In this document: piece after piece, positions 1-40,567 of the stretch
Position numbering within the stretch: position 1 is the first letter of the stretch
How the letters are laid out: each line of letters begins with the position of its first letter
Notes under the pieces: generated by a model
Seen by the model: the letters and a program-made list of their open reading frames with translations, nothing else
What the model was told of the DNA's origin: nothing
The model's database searches: none
Source of the DNA: a virus
IMG/VR virus record: IMGVR_UViG_3300033551_000014
Location: 1 to 40,567 of that record
DNA length: 40,567 bases
Strand: one strand, 5' to 3'
Position numbers and translations under genes: made by a program

Positions 1-127
1 AACATCAACACCGCAAAGACGCCTGATGACCTCAAGGCCGTGTTTGCAGTTATCTGGAAGTCGGACCTGCGCCAGACAGACAAACTCGAACTGCGAGAGG
101 CGTATGAAGCCAAGAAGGCGGACTTAG
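1..127. repeat. Terminal overlap of a circular assembly (copy 1)
   Basis: These 127 bases are identical to 40441-40567 at the other end of the window. A reading frame (39985 to 171) passes through the join without a break, so the sequence is a circular or circularly permuted genome of 40,440 bp. The size of 127 is a common assembler k-mer, so I read it as an assembly overlap and not as a biological terminal repeat. A headful-packaging P22-like terminase fits a permuted genome. Confidence 0.95.
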
Positions 128-999: not shown

Positions 1000-1412
1000 T
1001 CCGGTCTCGTAAGTACCTTGATGGCAGTAGAGGGGCAACGTGCAAGTTCCGCATTCCCGGCCATTGCGTTGGCGGCACTGAAACAACCGTTGCCTGTCAC
1101 ATCAAGGATGGATCAAACGGCATGGGGATGAAGGCTAGTGACCTGTCGGTCGTGGATGGGTGCCGAGGGTGCCATTTTTGCATGGACCAGAACATGCTCA
1201 GCAAAGAGGAATGGCTGTTCTACGCATTGCGGGGCCTACAGGAGACGTTAGAGGCCCGTTTCGCCCTTGGCCTGCTCATAGTGCCAGTTGATGCAGAAAC
1301 CCTGTCCAGCGAGCGCCCTGTGAAGCCACGTAAGCCTAAATCAGAGCGGAAGGCCATCAACTCAAAGCCCTTCCCCAAACAGTCCAGAGGATGGAGGAAG
1401 AGAGAGGAATGA
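996..1412 (+). CDS. YbcO-like (DUF1364) nuclease
   Basis: This 138-residue protein starts with GTG in a GTGA overlap. The N-terminal half shows the DUF1364/YbcO pattern: CKFRIPGHCVGG with paired cysteines, then ETTVACHIKDGSNGMGMKASD, then a DGCRGCH motif with Cys/Cys/His ligands. The family is an HNH/beta-beta-alpha-metal type nuclease found in lambdoid nin regions, probably acting on recombination intermediates. The Lys/Arg-rich C-terminal tail (about residues 107-138) could bind DNA. Neighbouring ninB supports a recombination role. Confidence 0.82.
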   Translation: MIRSRKYLDGSRGATCKFRIPGHCVGGTETTVACHIKDGSNGMGMKASDLSVVDGCRGCHFCMDQNMLSKEEWLFYALRGLQETLEARFALGLLIVPVDAETLSSERPVKPRKPKSERKAINSKPFPKQSRGWRKREE

Positions 1413-2194: not shown

Positions 2195-2413
2195 ATGAGC
2201 AATCCGTATGCCGGATATCACTACGAAACAATAGACGAGTACACTGAACGAATGGCATCGCTCAACCATGTGAAGAGAGTTGACGAATTAGTCGAGAAGA
2301 TGGGACGGCTGTTTTCAGGAGGAGGCGGAGATTATGGGTGCTACGCCGTAGCGGACGTTCAACAGCGCATTCGTATTCTAATGCACATGCTTTTGCCGGA
2401 GACAGAGAAATGA
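2195..2413 (+). CDS. Small hypothetical protein
   Basis: This 72-residue protein is unrecognised. The start at 2195 follows a GAGGGAATTGAG purine tract and sits ten bases after the gcrA stop. A GGGGG-like glycine run near residues 37-40 separates two helical halves. It is coupled to the next gene by an ATGA overlap at 2410. Confidence 0.65.
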   Translation: MSNPYAGYHYETIDEYTERMASLNHVKRVDELVEKMGRLFSGGGGDYGCYAVADVQQRIRILMHMLLPETEK

Positions 2414-2742
2414 CCGCTCGCAAACCCACAGAGAAAGCCACTGACGACATTACGATTGTTCCGGGTCCAGCAGTGGCCAAACAGCCAGCTCGCCAGCCCT
2501 ACGTGCTCCAAAGCGCTGTTGTGCTGTCTGAGCTAGATCGTCAGATGAGGGATGCACTATCCGAGATTGAGGTTGTGGAAGCCGATATCCTCTCCATTAC
2601 CGAAAGAGCCAATAGGGACAAGGCTGCAATTCAGGAACGCATGGAGCAGGAGATTACAGGACGTATGGAACGTAAGGCTGATCTTGAGCTAACAGTGGCT
2701 ATTGCTAGTGCTGGATTGGGGGCTGGGAAGGTAGGGGCTTAG
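2410..2742 (+). CDS. Hypothetical coiled-coil protein
   Basis: This 110-residue protein starts in an ATGA overlap. Residues about 45-100 form a long charged helix with heptad-like spacing (SELDRQMRDALSEIEVVEAD onward), so a coiled coil or oligomer is likely. No family recognised. It is the last gene before a terminator-like hairpin and the large structured RNA region. Confidence 0.65.
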   Translation: MTARKPTEKATDDITIVPGPAVAKQPARQPYVLQSAVVLSELDRQMRDALSEIEVVEADILSITERANRDKAAIQERMEQEITGRMERKADLELTVAIASAGLGAGKVGA

Positions 2743-2752
2743 GAATGAAGGA

Positions 2753-2779
2753 GCCCCGGCGCATTTAAGCAACCGGGGC
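2753..2779 (+). terminator. GC-rich hairpin, terminator-like
   Basis: GCCCCGG at 2753-2759 pairs with CCGGGGC at 2773-2779 around a 13-base AT-rich loop containing TTTAA. The downstream run (TTGCAATTT) is only weakly U-rich, so termination may be partial. The same seven-base stem with a TTTAA-containing loop recurs at 35258-35287, in front of the other large structured region. Confidence 0.6.
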
Positions 2780-2784
2780 TTGCA

Positions 2785-3280
2785 ATTTCTACGTGACGGC
2801 GTAGAGTGGAATTCAGTTGAGCGGTTTCTCAGGCCCTCAACCATGACCAAAGCGGGATGAACGCGTTTGGTAAGACTTGAATGCCACACATGGCCCATAA
2901 GTTCAAGCGCTTACCCCACAAAGTTATCCGCCAAGGTTCGTAGAGACAGGGTAAATCCCCTGTGACGGACAGCATGGCGCTGTTCTGTTTGATGGTAGTG
3001 CCCACTGGGTCACTCTACGTCTGCCGCGCAACCAGGGGGAACTGACAAGGCGCAAACCCAGTCCGTAGGGGAGAGGGGTGTCAGCAAGGGGATCGTCCCT
3101 TGGAAGCAACTCCCTAGCGCCAAGGCATGATCGCCGGAAGCGTGATCGTAAGCTCCGAACTCCGTCTCAAGGGACAGAAAAGGACCCGATCTGGACTGCT
3201 CCTTGTGCTTTCGGGCATGGGGAAGACAGTCCTTGATCACCAGCAACCGACCCCGAACTCAGGGACAGTTAAGGTAGAAA
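2785..3280 (+). ncRNA. Large structured noncoding RNA candidate A
   Basis: No convincing gene covers this roughly 500-base stretch of an otherwise overlapping operon. Reading the + strand I find many stems: GTTGAG 2816-2821 with CTCAAC 2836-2841; ACCAAA 2846-2851 with TTTGGT 2866-2871; CTTGAA 2876-2881 with TTCAAG 2902-2907, enclosing GCCA/TGGC; CGTAGAG 2939-2945 with CTCTACG 3013-3019, closing a multibranch that holds ACAGGG/CCCTGT (2946/2958) and ACAGC/GCTGT (2969/2979); GGCGC 3049-3053 with GCGCC 3117-3121, enclosing TAGGG/CCCTA (3066/3112) and CAAGGG/CCCTTG (3085/3097); GATCGC 3129 with a partner at 3142-3147; CCCGA 3185 with TCGGG 3211. I cannot assign it to a known family. It resembles in size and ornateness the large phage RNAs GOLLD and ROOL, but that is only analogy. 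Confidence 0.65.
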
Positions 3281-3289
3281 GAGAAGAAG

Positions 3290-3508
3290 GTGGAAAAGCC
3301 AAACGTGAACGAGGAAGTGCTGAAACAGGTAGAGGCCTACGTTCAGGACAAATATGCCTTCAACGAGGCAGAATACAATCGAATGAAAAAGGCGATGAAC
3401 GAAGCTCAGTTTGCATTTCTAGCCACTCTAGCAGCCCTAGAGGCATATAATAAGCCACTCGCGGATGTGCTTAGGGCTGAAGCGCTCAGATGCGGATGGA
3501 GGATTTGA
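3290..3508 (+). CDS. Small hypothetical protein
   Basis: This 72-residue, mostly helical protein starts with GTG behind a strong GAGAAGAAGG site and directly follows structured RNA candidate A. No family recognised. Its stop overlaps the next ATG as TGATG, so it is coupled to the following gene. Confidence 0.7.
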   Translation: MEKPNVNEEVLKQVEAYVQDKYAFNEAEYNRMKKAMNEAQFAFLATLAALEAYNKPLADVLRAEALRCGWRI

Positions 3509-3810
3509 TGACCGACGAAGAGAAAATCAAGGCCTTCTCTGACGCCCTAGAGAAGGGGATGGAGCAGGTTCTTCAAGGGATGGATTCGATGATGGAATCT
3601 ATGGATGAGCTAGCAATCCAGCTTCAAATTATGACCGAACATTACGTTGATCTGGCAGGTTGCGGCGATTGTGGGCATTGGGACCCAGAAAAAGAGGAGA
3701 AGGTCATAACTGCCCGCGCTGCACTGTCCGAATACGCAGAAGGCAAGGCTGAATGGCAGGAGTATCGTCTGACCATTCCCCAGCCAAAACAAACCATCCC
3801 CCACACTTAG
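3508..3810 (+). CDS. Small hypothetical protein
   Basis: This 100-residue protein is unrecognised. The start at 3508 is set by the TGATG overlap and the ATGGAGGA site just upstream. The first half is a helical, Met-rich segment. A CGDCGHW motif near residues 51-57 looks like a partial metal-binding knuckle. Confidence 0.7.
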   Translation: MTDEEKIKAFSDALEKGMEQVLQGMDSMMESMDELAIQLQIMTEHYVDLAGCGDCGHWDPEKEEKVITARAALSEYAEGKAEWQEYRLTIPQPKQTIPHT

Positions 3811-3831
3811 GGATAGAGGAAGAGAGAGATT

Positions 3832-4029
3832 ATGGACCGATTTGACGAGGAATATGTCTTCGAGCTTATCCGTGCCGCTTACGAACGCGGGTATCGCTGG
3901 GGCCAAGAAAACCCCGATAGTCGCCCGTTCCTGAACAAGGCTGCGTATGATTATGCAGATAAGGTATTGGGCGCCAATCGACAAGCTGACACTACCCCTC
4001 CCCAGCCCTCTACCACAACATCACAGTAG
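3832..4029 (+). CDS. Small hypothetical protein
   Basis: This 65-residue protein has an AGAGAGA ribosome site. The acidic N-terminus contains a helix with the AYERGYRWGQEN pattern, which recurs in small phage proteins of unknown role; compare the GHEVGYRAGREF segment of the gene at 36642. A Thr/Pro/Gln-rich tail follows. Function unknown. Confidence 0.65.
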   Translation: MDRFDEEYVFELIRAAYERGYRWGQENPDSRPFLNKAAYDYADKVLGANRQADTTPPQPSTTTSQ

Positions 4030-4039
4030 GAGAATGGGA

Positions 4040-4231
4040 ATGAGTGGTTGGAAACAAACGCACGATGGATGGCAGTACTTGGCGCCCGAAGGCGTCGAGG
4101 TTATGACCAAGATCGAGGATGATAAAGGCTCTCGAAACGAACAGGCGCTTGTCCGAAAAGGCAATCTTTGGTGGACGCCGGACGGGGCGATGTACGTTTA
4201 CTACACGCCCACGCATTGGAGGGATAAGTGA
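4040..4231 (+). CDS. Small Trp-rich hypothetical protein
   Basis: This 63-residue protein starts at 4040 behind TAGGAG. It is rich in Trp and Tyr with alternating polar residues, suggesting a small beta-sheet fold. The stop overlaps the GTG of the next small gene (GTGA at 4228). Confidence 0.65.
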   Translation: MSGWKQTHDGWQYLAPEGVEVMTKIEDDKGSRNEQALVRKGNLWWTPDGAMYVYYTPTHWRDK

Positions 4232-7256: not shown

Positions 7257-8639
7257 CTAGTAGCCATAGAACATTTCCGTCATGCCTGAGATATTGTTGA
7301 TCTTGCCAACTCTCAGATTTGCGTTAATGGCCGTATCATTCACATAGACGATAGGCGGCTTTACCGTTCTGGTATCCTCAACGGTGAGCGTTCCGATATT
7401 CACGCAACTCTTGATCCCTGCCTTGCCAACCAAGGAAACCACGCTGCTATCGCCGCTGTTGAACGTGTGAGCATGTCCAATCCGAACAATGGACGCCACG
7501 CCCTGGTTCGCAACAGCGCTGTCATTGACAACGATCGGTGCGGAAGGAGAGCGGGCCTGTAGATGATCAATATCCAGATCGCCGCCAAGAACCTGCACAG
7601 CATAATGGCCAACGTTCTCTATGCTGAGATTACCGAACCGCGCAGATGGCTTATTGGGGCTTGTACCCTTCAGTCTGAGCAGACCGCTGCCCAGAACATT
7701 GCCGCTAAGGGTCGCTTCTGAAACAACGAGCTTTGCACCATGTCCCGGCGATATGGGCTTATTCAACCCTCGGACATTCATCGACCCTATAGAAATCATG
7801 CCGCCATTATGAATCCACGGCTCCACTGTTCCGTTAGCGACGAAATCGAGATTGAGGCTTCCGACATGCAGTTTAAAGTCATCGGAATCGACTGCCTTGA
7901 TAGATGACCCAGCATCAAGCCCCGACCCCTTCATGGATAGATAGCCGATGTTTGCTGTGAACCGACGCGATCCGGTATAATCATCGGGCTCGATATCGAG
8001 GCAATGGCGGTCTGTATCGTCGGGAGTTCCACCAAACAGGGACGCGCCGCCCTGCGTGTTATCCAGAGTTGCCGTACCGATATGCACCCTATCAGCATAG
8101 TGCCAGACAAGGTTCTTTCGCCCCGCCGTATGTGCCTTCAGCCGATGAATGACGATATTGTCGGAGAACTGCGTTGTTTCATTATCCCCGCCGATAAAGA
8201 CGTTATCACCCCGCGCATTGAAGGCAATGAGTTCGTCAATTTCCAGCCCATGCACATTGAAGATGAAGGCGCAGTGCATATGCTCGTTATTGTTCGATGC
8301 GATTTCAGGTACTGAACCATCAAGGCTTAGATCGCCACGAATGCGGATATTTTCGGATAGGGAATATCCCTTGCCAATGGATAGGAGACGAGTCCAAGAA
8401 CTAGCGCCGGGAGCCAGCTTAAGCTTAGTGTTCTTGCAATGGATATCGACGTTGCTAGGAACAAGGAAAGCCCATGCATTCGAGCCATCCTGACAGACGT
8501 AAAGCGTCTCGCCCTCGCACTCCATGCTGACAGGCTTCCCTGTCTGCGCATAAGCCATAAGGTCTTTGAATGCCTGCACATTAGTAGCGGCGGCTGAAGG
8601 GTCGTTATAGATGGCGCCGTATTCAGTGATGTGCTTCAA
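7257..8639 (-). CDS. Tailspike, beta-helix type
   Basis: This 460-residue protein begins with the pectate-lyase-like capping region common in phage tailspikes (YGAIYNDPSAAATNVQAF), then a long series of short strands with many Asn, Gly and Ile-x-Ile patterns, as in a right-handed parallel beta-helix. Its place directly after the tail-fibre gene suggests it is the receptor-binding or polysaccharide-degrading tip. The catalytic residues cannot be assigned by eye. Confidence 0.72.
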   Translation of the reverse strand: MKHITEYGAIYNDPSAAATNVQAFKDLMAYAQTGKPVSMECEGETLYVCQDGSNAWAFLVPSNVDIHCKNTKLKLAPGASSWTRLLSIGKGYSLSENIRIRGDLSLDGSVPEIASNNNEHMHCAFIFNVHGLEIDELIAFNARGDNVFIGGDNETTQFSDNIVIHRLKAHTAGRKNLVWHYADRVHIGTATLDNTQGGASLFGGTPDDTDRHCLDIEPDDYTGSRRFTANIGYLSMKGSGLDAGSSIKAVDSDDFKLHVGSLNLDFVANGTVEPWIHNGGMISIGSMNVRGLNKPISPGHGAKLVVSEATLSGNVLGSGLLRLKGTSPNKPSARFGNLSIENVGHYAVQVLGGDLDIDHLQARSPSAPIVVNDSAVANQGVASIVRIGHAHTFNSGDSSVVSLVGKAGIKSCVNIGTLTVEDTRTVKPPIVYVNDTAINANLRVGKINNISGMTEMFYGY

Positions 8640-29110: not shown

Positions 29111-29467
29111 TCATTGAATGGGTTTGGAGGCTTTGGAACGGGCGCGTTTGTTGCGCATGTAGTTCCGATTATAGGCTGCTTTGTCGAAGCCTGTACGAGG
29201 CCTACCTGGCCTTAGAGTAGTATCGACGGGCGGGGCTTGAGTACCCGCTGCGGGAGGGATTTGAACCCCAGACCTTCCACCGGCTGGCAGACGCTCTCCC
29301 GACTGAGCTACCAATTCGCCATTGCCTTGGGCTTCGCCTTTGTGCACGAAGCTGCCGCCCTTGGCTTTGACTTGCACGTCCTTCCGTGCTGCCATCGATT
29401 TCATGGCCGGACATGGCTGGCTTGACCAATGCCGTGTCTGGCAAACTTTGTGTAATGGCGCTTCCAT
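29111..29467 (-). CDS. Basic protein containing an in-frame tRNA-shaped segment
   Basis: The frame of 118 codons from ATG 29467 has a C-terminal end that looks like a true small phage protein (RPGRPRTGFDKAAYNRNYMR, then basic residues). Its middle (GELVAQSGERLPAGGRSGVQ) is the translation of a tRNA-like sequence at 29247-29317. No strong ribosome site is visible; starts at 29404 and 29395 are alternatives. The product may be a small DNA- or RNA-binding protein whose gene has taken in a tRNA fragment. Confidence 0.5.
   Translation of the reverse strand: MEAPLHKVCQTRHWSSQPCPAMKSMAARKDVQVKAKGGSFVHKGEAQGNGELVAQSGERLPAGGRSGVQIPPAAGTQAPPVDTTLRPGRPRTGFDKAAYNRNYMRNKRARSKASKPIQ
29247..29317 (-). pseudogene. 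tRNA-like remnant
   Basis: On the minus strand the D-arm is canonical (TAGCTCAGTCGGGAGAGCG) with the usual A14, G18-G19 and A21, followed by a variable-loop-like AGGTC and a T-loop GTTCAAATC. The acceptor arms do not pair (GAATTGG against CCGCAGC), the T-stem has a mismatch, and the anticodon loop lacks U33. It is therefore a degenerate tRNA or a tRNA-derived fragment, not a working tRNA gene. Confidence 0.7.
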
Positions 29468-29510: not shown

Positions 29511-29671
29511 TTGATCGGTCTACTCGCCCACCGTACCGATCAGAAGTGGGATTACCGAGGGAGGGAGGCTCGGTGCGATGGCTTTGAGGCGGGCCAAGGT
29601 TCACCACTGCCTCGGCTGTTTTGATTGGTTGTATCCGTTCGGATAGGTGCAGCCGCCTCAAACTCTATACC
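29511..29671. other. Noncoding stretch between leftward genes
   Basis: No supported gene on either strand. It holds one hairpin (ACCGAG with CTCGGT near 29554-29573). A copy of CCTCAAACTCTAT at about 29656 repeats the sequence at about 29764, which carries the ribosome site of the 28-residue gene. Confidence 0.4.
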
Positions 29672-30826: not shown

Positions 30827-31015
30827 TTAGGTTTGCTTTGGAGGGGCGAAAGCCTGGCTAACGCCGTCTCTAACTGACTTTGATAGTGCGTCCTCCGCGT
30901 TTGCAAGATCGTCAAGAGCAGAGCGTGTCTGAGGATCGCCCGCTGGCAGCTTCAGGAACCGAGTACGAGCCATGTACCAATCCATAGCGGCCTCAACCAC
31001 TTTTTCATCACTCAT
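30827..31015 (-). CDS. Small hypothetical protein
   Basis: This 62-residue helical protein (VVEAAMDWYMAR; LDDLANAEDALSKSV) is coupled by ATGA at 31012 to the gene upstream. Unrecognised family typical of early phage regions. Confidence 0.6.
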   Translation of the reverse strand: MSDEKVVEAAMDWYMARTRFLKLPAGDPQTRSALDDLANAEDALSKSVRDGVSQAFAPPKQT

Positions 31016-31128
31016 TTCCGCACCAGTTGGCTTACGTGGAACTTACGATGGGTTACGTCTATAATCCGGCGCTGCTTTTGAGTGTAGACAGTGCTGGAGC
31101 GATGGCTGGTGTAGTTGTAGCTGCTCAT
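31012..31128 (-). CDS. Small basic protein (38 aa)
   Basis: A 38-codon frame starts at 31128 behind GGAGG and is coupled on both sides by ATGA overlaps. The product is Ser/Tyr-rich then strongly basic, so it may bind nucleic acid. Unrecognised. Confidence 0.55.
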   Translation of the reverse strand: MSSYNYTSHRSSTVYTQKQRRIIDVTHRKFHVSQLVRK

Positions 31129-34487: not shown

Positions 34488-34494
34488 TCTTCTC

Positions 34495-35025
34495 TCCTAA
34501 TTCAGCTTACACCTGTCACAGAAGACGTAGGGTGAGGTATCCCTCAGGCTTTACATCTCCGGTATTCTCTGGAGGCTAGTTCAACACAACCGACACTATC
34601 GACACTGTTTGCACTCCGGAAGCTCCCGGGTTCGCTATAGAGGGAGTCACCCCCTGGTACGCGCTTGGCTTATGGCCTAGCACCTCACCACTTTCGTCGT
34701 ATCGTAGGGACCGCTGCCTGCTAAATCCCTATGGCCGTCTTTTGAGCGGGTTCACGTCCCCCGTCTGCCAGCCGGTTATGTTGTAGGCACTGCACGTCAC
34801 TGGTAAGTCTGTGTGGTGTCTCTGGACAAGCCTCAACCATAGGTTCACAGCTTCTAAGCGTGACCTTGGGCAGAACTAGCGATATGTTGGGACTTGGCTG
34901 TTGCAACTAACTAAGGGTTGCGATATTTATAGCCTTATCCGAAACGCGCTGGACCCGCTTTCGGTCTATCGAGGGAGACTTGAGGCCTCCTTAGATAAGC
35001 ACAGTTTTAGACGAGAATTCTATCC
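34495..35025 (-). ncRNA. Large structured noncoding RNA candidate B
   Basis: About 540 bases separate two leftward genes in an operon that otherwise overlaps. Complementary stems (given as + coordinates) include GACGAG 35010-35015 with CTCGTC 35025-35030; GGCT 34896-34899 with AGCC 34931-34934 enclosing GCAAC 34903 and GTTGC 34917; AAGC 34828 with GCTT 34850 enclosing AACC/GGTT; TAGGGA 34705-34710 with TCCCTA 34726-34731; CGGG/CCCG (34747/34760); CTCCC 34623 with GGGAG 34642; CTCC/GGAG (34557/34571); TGAGG 34533 with CCTCA 34542. No long codon-like frame with a ribosome site is present. On the minus strand it shares short blocks with candidate A. No known family recognised. Confidence 0.6.
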
Positions 35026-35028
35026 TCG

Positions 35029-35238
35029 TCAACGCTTCGAGGCTCTTGGGCGAAACCGCTTGGGAGCCTCATGCTTTTCCAAAGCCGTCTTCACTTCGAC
35101 AGCCGGAAAATGCACGGCCTCAATCGTCCAAAACGAACGACCCATGTATACGCGATTTCCAACCAATGCGGTCTTATCGGAAACCATCACGGTCTGCGTG
35201 TTGTCGTCTTTGCGAACTCGACATTCATGCTGGTACAT
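35029..35238 (-). CDS. Small hypothetical protein
   Basis: This 69-residue protein starts at 35238 with AAGGAG six bases in front; longer in-frame starts would run through the hairpin at 35258-35287. The N-terminal part is strand-rich (CRVRKDDNTQTVMVSDKTAL), the tail very basic (PKRFRPRASKR). It may bind nucleic acid. It is directly upstream of structured RNA B. Confidence 0.62.
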   Translation of the reverse strand: MYQHECRVRKDDNTQTVMVSDKTALVGNRVYMGRSFWTIEAVHFPAVEVKTALEKHEAPKRFRPRASKR

Positions 35239-35257
35239 ATTCATCTCCTTTTTCATC

Positions 35258-35287
35258 GCCCCGGTTGGTTTAAACGCCTTCCGGGGC
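35258..35287. terminator. GC-rich hairpin upstream of the 35238 start
   Basis: GCCCCGG at 35258-35264 pairs with CCGGGGC at 35281-35287 around a loop with TTTAA. On the minus strand it is followed not by a U-run but by the ribosome site of the next gene, so there it may act as a processing or attenuating stem. On the + strand TTTCCTTT follows. It matches the hairpin at 2753-2779. Confidence 0.45.
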
Positions 35288-35296
35288 TTTCCTTTC

Positions 35297-35488
35297 CTAA
35301 GCCTTTGGAGGAAGAAAGTGCCTCTTTGCATTTTCTGGTAAAGCATCAACCATCTGTTCTGCGGCTAGTGGGGCGACAGACATTGCTCGACAGAGTGACG
35401 GAATACAAAGAGCCAGTTCGTGGGTCGTTATATCTTCCTTCGGTTGCCAGACGTACTTTAGTTTGAAGATCGACAAAACGTCGCTCAT
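35297..35488 (-). CDS. Small hypothetical protein
   Basis: This 63-residue protein is unrecognised (MSDVLSIFKLKYVWQPKED at the start). It ends ten bases before the GC hairpin and begins after the small structured element at 35529-35627. Confidence 0.6.
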   Translation of the reverse strand: MSDVLSIFKLKYVWQPKEDITTHELALCIPSLCRAMSVAPLAAEQMVDALPENAKRHFLPPKA

Positions 35489-35528
35489 CCTAATTTCCTT
35501 TTCATGAGTTACGTGGTAGGGTGGAGAT

Positions 35529-35627
35529 GTGAGGCGTCGTCTTTGACGTTATGGGTACTAGTCCGGTGCGTTCCCTAGTTTGCGGTTCGAAACGTATTTC
35601 TAGCGCAGTAAGCCGGTCACGCCTCAC
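35529..35627 (-). ncRNA. Small structured RNA candidate C
   Basis: A perfect 9-bp inverted repeat (GTGAGGCGT at 35529-35537, ACGCCTCAC at 35619-35627) closes a 99-base element in the gap 35489-35675. Inside are a CGTC/GACG hairpin, paired CCGG blocks and three CTAG/CTAGT words that may form further pairs. No gene fits. It could be a regulatory leader, a processed small RNA or a protein-binding site. Orientation is assumed from the operon. Confidence 0.5.
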
Positions 35628-35675
35628 TCTCCCCCTCCCAAGCCAATTATTACCTATTAATAGGGGTAGTGGAGA

Positions 35676-36038
35676 CTAGAGGGGACGGAAGAACGGCCAG
35701 ACCTCAACCTTAAGCCCTTTGCACTCTCCGTACTGAAGAGTTATCTTCCGGCATAGGTGGTCATCCTCCACGATCTTATGGCTTACGAGGGCGTCAATCG
35801 CAGCCTTCGCTCTCCCGTCCAAATCTGACCGTACACGGACTTTCTTGGGGTTGATGGTGATACTGACCTCAAACTCCCCTTTCACCTCTCCATGGCCGTT
35901 GTAATCCCACCCAGCGGCATTCTGCCATTGCTTGTATCTGTCGGTTCGAACTCTCCCCTTTCCTGGTACATTGGCGTAGAGAGAATTAACCCCGGGGGGC
36001 ACATGCTCGCTTTCGATGGTGATGGCGGCCTTAGGCAT
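35676..36038 (-). CDS. rusA: RusA family Holliday junction resolvase
   Basis: This 120-residue protein has the RusA length and active-site layout: RSDLDGRAKAAIDAL with Asp72 and Asp74, then VEDDHL with Asp92/93, matching the three catalytic aspartates of RusA (Asp70, Asp72, Asp91 in Escherichia coli). The start at 36038 overlaps the upstream stop. RusA cuts four-way junctions, resolving recombination intermediates or branched concatemers before packaging. Confidence 0.9.
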   Translation of the reverse strand: MPKAAITIESEHVPPGVNSLYANVPGKGRVRTDRYKQWQNAAGWDYNGHGEVKGEFEVSITINPKKVRVRSDLDGRAKAAIDALVSHKIVEDDHLCRKITLQYGECKGLKVEVWPFFRPL

Positions 36039-38508: not shown

Positions 38509-38521
38509 CCTGAAAAGAAAA

Positions 38522-38553
38522 GGCCCGGAGAGCGTTACGGCTCAATCCGGACC
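38522..38553 (+). terminator. Long hairpin after the first rightward gene block
   Basis: GG-CCGGA at 38522-38529 pairs with TCCGG-CC at 38546-38553 (one C-A mismatch), and GAGC pairs with GCTC inside, closing a six-base loop GTTACG. No U-run follows, so it may be an attenuator or processing site rather than a classical terminator. The gap 38554-38648 after it contains a TACAAT near 38623 that could be a -10 box for the next gene. Confidence 0.45.
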
Positions 38554-38648
38554 TAAGTAGCGGCAGGGGAGGATGAGGGATGCCGCAATCATCTTCTATC
38601 CCACTTCCCCAGCCATATACAATACCCAACCAATGAGGATGATTAGAG

Positions 38649-39988: not shown

Positions 39989-40567
39989 GCCAGCTAGACC
40001 CACGAATTGAGGCTATTCGAGCCAAATACGATCTGGATGCTTCCGATTTCTGGGAACTACCCCAGAAGCGAGGGACATGGATCGCTAAGCATTCGGCTTT
40101 GGAGGTCGTCGCCGTCAAAGCCAACATCGTTTGGTCCATGCCCCAGATCATTGAGGCAGCGAGCATCGACGGAATTGCCGCCATGGTGGTTATGGGAACG
40201 ATGGGGACGCGCTCTGAATGGGCGACGGGCGAGGCAGGGCCAAAGAACAACAAGAACGCCTACCCTTGGGCAATGGCTGAGAAGCGCGCCAAGGATCGTG
40301 TCGTTCTAAAGCTCAGCGGCATTGCAGGGCTTGTCTATTCCGAGGATGAGGCAGACGACTTCAAGCAGCCTGCTGACGCCCCTCCCAAGCCTTCTGCAAG
40401 GCCTGTGGACCCGACAAAAGTATTCAATGAGCATCTAACCAACATCAACACCGCAAAGACGCCTGATGACCTCAAGGCCGTGTTTGCAGTTATCTGGAAG
40501 TCGGACCTGCGCCAGACAGACAAACTCGAACTGCGAGAGGCGTATGAAGCCAAGAAGGCGGACTTAG
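39985..40567 (+). CDS. Putative ssDNA/recombination-associated protein (continues at base 1)
   Basis: The gene starts in an ATGA overlap and continues across the window join to 171, giving 208 residues. The centre (AYPWAMAEKRAKDRVVLKLSG, here about residues 93-112, then GLVYSEDEADDF) resembles the conserved part of phage single-strand annealing or ERF-like proteins, in which a KRA--R---- helix precedes an acidic linker. A Pro-rich linker near residues 127-142 leads to a helical C-terminal domain. Its neighbours Gp157, NinB and a YbcO nuclease support a recombination role. Confidence 0.65.
   Translation, partial: MSQLDPRIEAIRAKYDLDASDFWELPQKRGTWIAKHSALEVVAVKANIVWSMPQIIEAASIDGIAAMVVMGTMGTRSEWATGEAGPKNNKNAYPWAMAEKRAKDRVVLKLSGIAGLVYSEDEADDFKQPADAPPKPSARPVDPTKVFNEHLTNINTAKTPDDLKAVFAVIWKSDLRQTDKLELREAYEAKKADL
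40441..40567. repeat. Terminal overlap of a circular assembly (copy 2)
   Basis: Exact second copy of bases 1-127. It lies inside the 3' half of the gene that begins at 39985. Confidence 0.95.

Follow-up and report, generated by a model that had tools for sequence, protein, structure and literature searches.

Our analysis indicates that a virus record of 40,567 bases (IMG/VR IMGVR_UViG_3300033551_000014; the whole stretch of DNA analyzed here, hereafter the window) very likely encodes a real, conserved structured RNA of ~480 nt, which we refer to as RNA A. The conserved extent of this large noncoding RNA, at about positions 2811 to 3289 on the plus strand, is defined by homology to, and covariation with, a second phage contig (L018:3934-3454, minus strand). 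The comparisons below show that the fold of RNA A is conserved and that it does not depend on a coding frame. RNA A likely represents a new RNA family that is absent from Rfam, with the window and L018 as its only two known members.

Between an ORF ending at 2742 and an ORF starting at 3290, the 547 bases from 2743 to 3289 contain no credible gene, and PHROG families gave no meaningful match to the ORFs of this region on either strand. These findings uphold a sequence-only reading made before this analysis, which had described about 500 bases without a supported gene. Its claim of dense stems was also upheld, as the region contains 14 perfect stems of at least 6 bp with a span of at most 60 nt compared to 4.2 ± 2.0 in dinucleotide shuffles, none of 100 of which contained as many. 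Searching Rfam 15 revealed nothing at the gathering threshold and a single chance match up to an E value of 10, in agreement with the earlier failure to match the region to GOLLD, ROOL, or a group I or group II intron. The extent that had been proposed, 2780-3285, was corrected to about 2811-3289. A weak promoter-like sequence (TTGCAA-16-TAGAGT; 2780..2807, plus strand) was read from the sequence and remains an inference only.

The minimum free energy of the region corresponded to a z score of -2.9 when a 5' hairpin was included and -2.2 when it was excluded. For 60 control windows from the same genome, the mean z score was 0.0 with a standard deviation of 1.2, and one control reached -4.4. 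Due to this spread, folding energy alone is weak evidence, and we rejected it as sole proof of RNA A since its z score is only moderately unusual relative to the controls. The control at -4.4 was window 35201-35707 on the plus strand, which is antisense to the operon.

The homolog was found with an 18-mer from the core of RNA A (AACTGACAAGGCGCAAAC), which matched one other contig among IMG/VR contigs, IMGVR 3300023104_000012 (contig L018, phage record G3). BLASTN extended this match to 83% identity across window positions 2901-3290, and the full alignment of RNA A with L018 showed 78% identity over 474 aligned bases with indels of 1 or 2 bases. This alignment includes an invariant core of 63 consecutive identical bases (3026..3088, plus strand; alignment columns 221-283) that contains the 18-mer. 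G3 is a distant cousin phage with a gene order partly common with that of the window and other DNA that is little alike. Both RNA A and its L018 homolog have stops in every reading frame, which together with the single-base and 2-base indels excludes coding and, with it, the conserved reading frame that the sequence-only reading had named as a refutation. The folding z score of the L018 RNA was -3.2.

RNAalifold analysis of the window and L018 produced 118 consensus pairs, including 12 that were doubly compensated and none that were broken. The number of doubly compensated pairs compares with 6.0 ± 1.8 in shuffles and 0 to 1 when the partners were slid (35-48% of cells paired). This structure was fitted to both sequences, and the lack of broken pairs is partly by construction. 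Because RNAalifold had used both sequences, we performed an independent test from one sequence. In the structure predicted from the window only, 49 pairs differ in L018, and 23 of these 49 still pair, 9 by double change. When the same substitutions were dealt randomly, 26% of pairs were kept with 2.8 double changes, and none of 2,000 trials produced as many. Reciprocal analysis of the L018 structure applied to the window verified that 22 of 45 pairs were kept, with 10 double changes. The window and L018 thereby provide at least two diverged members with a shared, covarying secondary structure. Covariation among homologs was among the checks proposed by the sequence-only reading, and the large structured RNA that it had suggested is now supported by conservation and covariation in the absence of transcript evidence.

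Many doubly compensated pairs were also observed for the antisense strand, as Watson-Crick symmetry requires, and our strand call rests only on G-U-type single changes. Single changes of this G-U-consistent kind numbered 14 and 12 on the sense strand but only 7 and 7 on the antisense strand, suggesting an RNA from the plus strand. A DNA-level element, in which the inverted repeats would serve replication, recombination, or packaging by folding as single-stranded DNA, is compatible with compensation being visible on the antisense strand and with the ERF-type recombinase gene and the recombination linkers that, by inference, are likely part of the biology of this phage. We regard this explanation as very unlikely, since the G-U-consistent changes favor the sense strand as RNA and the operon and orientation of the element differ between the window and G3. 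We similarly consider it very unlikely that the region is a decayed gene or meaningless intergenic sequence. Folding energy taken alone, which is mildly unusual, would permit this interpretation, but an identical run of 63 bases and compensatory changes in phages that are otherwise largely diverged argue against it.

Four helices of RNA A are best supported. The helix 2852-2860/2924-2931 (2852..2931, plus strand) contains three doubly compensated pairs (GCGGGATGA/TTATCCGC in the window to AGTGGGTGA/TCACCCCT in L018), and the hairpin CAAGGGG/TCCCTTG (3085-3091/3096-3102, plus strand), which is CAAGAGG/TCTCTTG in L018, contains one compensated pair. A 3' composite hairpin of 21 pairs (3188..3238, plus strand) consists of an outer helix and an apical helix, both with compensated changes: the outer helix 3188-3191/3235-3238 changes from GATC/GATC to GGAT/ATCC in L018 through three compensated pairs, and the apical helix has one doubly compensated and four G-U-consistent changes. 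A three-hairpin domain (2939..3019, plus strand; hairpins at 2946-2963, 2964-2989, and 3000-3010) is closed by CGTAGAG/CTCTACG at 2939-2945/3013-3019. This closing helix, which had previously been claimed to close a three-stem unit, is unchanged in the homolog and, because it is invariant, is uninformative on covariation. The GGCGC/GCGCC stem that had also been claimed is present in the window but unsupported, with one mismatch in L018, and a compensated alternative at 3117-3120/3140-3143 fits better. The hairpin 2846-2851/2866-2871 is kept in both sequences and competes with 2869-2873/2911-2915, so the fold given for the 5' third is provisional.

The first and last ~127 bases of the window (1-127 and 40441-40567), as read from the sequence, repeat each other, which suggests a probably complete genome with a circular assembly. 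A gene for a GcrA-like protein raises the possibility, inferred from sequence alone, of an alphaproteobacterial host. The isolates closest by terminase, Pseudoalteromonas phage H6/1 (45%) and Vibrio breoganii phage 1.182.O (44%), are only distantly related, and the closest IMG/VR phages are G1 (3300028590_000062) and G2 (3300028592_000035). The window, G1, and G2 share many near-identical linkers of 35-130 nt (window 1361-1412, 3773-3827, 3999-4046, 29511-29589, 31008-31128, 38513-38642, and others), with mostly different and unrelated genes between them in these otherwise diverged phages, which likely reflects a cassette-exchange architecture inferred from the sequences. The linker at 31008-31128 has 121 bases that are 99% identical in all three phages and an apparent 38-amino-acid peptide (MSSYNYTSHRSSTVYTQKQRRIIDVTHRKFHVSQLVRK).

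RNA A is positioned between a linker ending at 2747 and a linker starting at 3773. The left border of this slot is a gene for a 109-amino-acid protein (2413..2742, plus strand) that is 95% identical in G2, and the right border is the conserved linker 3773..3827 (plus strand; 96% identity in G1 and 88% in G2). Downstream of RNA A is a gene with a GTG start for a 72-amino-acid protein of unknown function (3290..3508, plus strand); L018 carries an HNH gene at this place instead and has no counterpart. The same slot contains an HNH gene and a second gene in G2 and a different noncoding stretch of ~500 nt in G1 (L002:2460-2930, plus strand), which ends with a terminator-like hairpin and has a folding z score of about -1.5 to -1.9. 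Since slot contents differ among the three phages, we consider the slot an exchange site. A GC-rich hairpin just 5' of RNA A (2752..2780, plus strand) resembles hairpins in the linker at 35260-35290 and in G2, and it likely lies outside the conserved RNA as a linker or terminator-like element of a repeated linker type.

In L018, the RNA is followed after nine bases by the start of an HNH gene encoding a 172-amino-acid protein (PF01844; E value, 2e-8) with matches to HNH-type families only. The order of this locus is RNA, HNH, tRNA-Gly(UCC), and a second tRNA-like gene. The two adjacent tRNA-like genes (L018 2698-2841, minus strand) have very short D arms; the tRNA-Gly(UCC) has a shrunken D arm and an Rfam score of 30.5 bits, above the gathering threshold, and the second has a CCA anticodon. 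The RNA/HNH/tRNA unit is oriented opposite to the neighboring genes and operon, with the RNA between divergent genes. A putative promoter, TTGACT-17-GATTAT (score of 9/12), is located just before the conserved start and aligns with the TTGCAA-16-TAGAGT site of the window. RNA A stands alone in the window without an HNH gene in its slot, and its presence with HNH in L018 indicates that the RNA and HNH are separable. The nearest tRNA-like sequence to RNA A in the window is far off, at 29252-29312 (minus strand), with a score of 25.8 bits relative to an Rfam gathering threshold of 29 and no ARAGORN call.

Homing endonucleases are present in many phage group I introns, and a structured RNA locus with an optional HNH gene resembles a group I intron encoding an HNH homing endonuclease. 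The large size, the many helices, and a nearby HNH gene would fit a self-splicing intron or an intron-derived ribozyme. This possibility is nonetheless very unlikely, as no group I or group II intron model of Rfam matched RNA A even at an E value of 10, and RNA A does not split a gene: the upstream ORF is complete before it and a separate ORF follows.

We compared the L018 HNH protein to annotated phages and inspected eight relatives. The HNH proteins of L018, Sulfitobacter phage phiGT1, Xanthomonas phage Kintu, and Vibrio phages 2.095.A and 1.276.O form one subfamily, with 41-56% identity over the HNH core for most pairs, lengths of 161-189 amino acids, and no RuvC-like parts. Unannotated gaps of 470-550 nt (467-548) precede the related HNH genes in phiGT1, 2.095.A, 1.276.O, and Kintu. 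In phiGT1, the 641 unannotated bases before HNH are the longest gap of the genome and are reduced to ~548 nt with an upstream in-frame start (MT584811 34364-34911; L106 2261-2808, plus strand). This structured gap has a z score of -2.3 and contains a 5' motif (GGCTTAGGAATAAAG) and a GC hairpin resembling window 2734-2780. The gap of 2.095.A is 524 nt (7652-8175; z score of -3.1), that of Kintu is 489 nt (L110 1185-1673; z score of -4.5, including a terminator at the gap start), and that of 1.276.O is 467 nt, for which only the gap length was determined and no fold. The three folded gaps thus have z scores of -2.3 to -4.5. Three of the eight relatives, those of Microcystis phages Mae-JY35 and Mwe-JY08 and of Pantoea LIET2, lack such a gap. 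The open-access text of the phiGT1 paper did not mention the gap with the terms tried, and the open-access literature that we searched yielded no account of RNAs associated with this HNH subfamily.

A second structured RNA family was identified in Vibrio phages beside HNH genes or tRNA-Arg (L108 1270-1793, L112 2496-2800, and L114 1501-2001). Its alignment contains 10 doubly compensated pairs, it has no Rfam match, and homologs are present in other Vibrio phages. In Vibrio phage F89, whose HNH protein was not included in the subfamily comparison, an HNH gene is close downstream of this RNA, whereas in V. breoganii phages 1.242.O and 1.240.O the RNA is beside tRNA-Arg without an annotated HNH gene. 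The RNAs before HNH in phiGT1, 2.095.A, F89, 1.276.O, and Kintu are similar to the L018 RNA in size (470-550 nt) and position. However, the HNH-associated RNAs of phiGT1, the Vibrio phages, and Kintu showed no similarity to RNA A in either sequence or covariance-model comparisons, so their link to it is by position and size, and by neighbors. The 9- to 10-mers common to Kintu and RNA A were rejected as homology because their order is not conserved.

One alternative is a cis-acting leader, in which RNA A would form a structured 5' untranslated region of unusual length and control the next gene downstream. Within ~10 bases after the conserved end, both the window and L018 have a ribosome-binding site and a start codon, as expected for a leader. 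We consider this explanation unlikely because the downstream genes are unrelated (a 72-amino-acid unknown protein versus HNH), the analogous Vibrio RNA precedes different genes, only some of which are HNH, and 480 nt is long for such an element.

Another unlikely explanation is that RNA A is a partner that binds or guides the small HNH protein, similarly to omega (HEARO) RNA with IscB or IsrB. The L018 RNA is directly 5' of an HNH-encoding gene, as is HEARO RNA, and noncoding gaps of similar size precede related HNH genes in phiGT1, 2.095.A, 1.276.O, and Kintu. In contrast to HEARO systems, RNA A occurs in the window without an HNH partner, as the Vibrio RNA also can; neither the window RNA nor L018 matches the HEARO model of Rfam; the 172-amino-acid L018 protein contains the HNH domain only, with no IscB/IsrB-type RuvC-like parts adjacent; and the RNAs preceding the subfamily differ in sequence. 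A bolder reading, which we also regard as doubtful, is that this small HNH subfamily of alphaproteobacterial, Vibrio, and Xanthomonas phages is paired with fast-evolving structured RNAs of ~500 nt immediately upstream. If true, each pair would amount to an RNA-nuclease mobile element or an RNA-dependent nuclease that has not yet been described, with RNA A as an example that the window retained after losing the nuclease.

We attempted to detect further relatives of RNA A. BLASTN against phages and plasmids gave no match. Protein-guided searches with the neighboring genes found only G1 and G2, both without RNA A, as did a linker pattern search, and the genome search found none. Scans of viral contigs with a core 15-mer and of genomes with the 18-mer returned 83 loci besides L018, none of them a homolog: the two strongest (L104 and L099) were rejected as inside coding genes and the remainder as lacking similarity past the seed. 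RNA A was not found by BLASTN in 385 alphaproteobacterial genomes or by covariance model in 398 Pseudomonadota genomes. A second candidate, B, a gene-free stretch of ~540 nt within the leftward operon (window 34488-35028, minus strand), gave no signal comparable to that of RNA A, with z scores of -0.7 to -1.6, no Rfam match, no stem excess, and no homolog found. Candidate B and the noncoding slot stretch of G1 were rejected as relatives of RNA A due to a lack of similarity and of stem excess, and the apparent gaps of G1 and G2 in the slot of B were rejected as noncoding since both are coding.

GOLLD and ROOL are phage RNAs of unknown function that are often near tRNA islands and form RNA-only cages in vitro, with GOLLD members often exceeding 800 nt (PMC12286853). 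RNA A resembles them as a long multi-helix noncoding phage RNA; tRNA neighbors are present in L018 but not in the window. RNA A differs in its length of ~480 nt and matches neither Rfam model at gathering threshold or up to an E value of 10. GOLLD and ROOL are likely analogues of RNA A rather than relatives.

We propose a model where the region is the gene of a ~480-nt structured noncoding RNA carried as a cassette in a variable slot. In the window, RNA A would be read with the rightward operon and possibly also from its own weak promoter; in G3, it would form an inverted, self-standing unit with the HNH gene and a pair of tRNA-like genes. RNA A may exert its effect in trans as a folded molecule during infection, which is also the mode of action supposed for GOLLD and ROOL. 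The neighboring HNH gene, present in some phages and absent in others, may help the locus spread between phages via homing-type cleavage and recombination. On balance, we lean toward this view of an RNA gene that acts in trans and is spread by exchange and sometimes by an HNH gene. Both the trans action and the HNH-aided spread are inferred, without transcript evidence, and any biochemical role is suggested by analogy only.

Few large structured noncoding RNAs are known in bacteria and phages, and GOLLD and ROOL are still without a function. RNA A likely adds to these a family absent from Rfam that is backed by compensatory changes. That such RNAs recur before one HNH subfamily or beside tRNAs may provide a search rule for more RNAs, and cultured phages with analogous RNAs, Sulfitobacter phage phiGT1 and Vibrio phages 2.095.A and 1.242.O, are open to testing.
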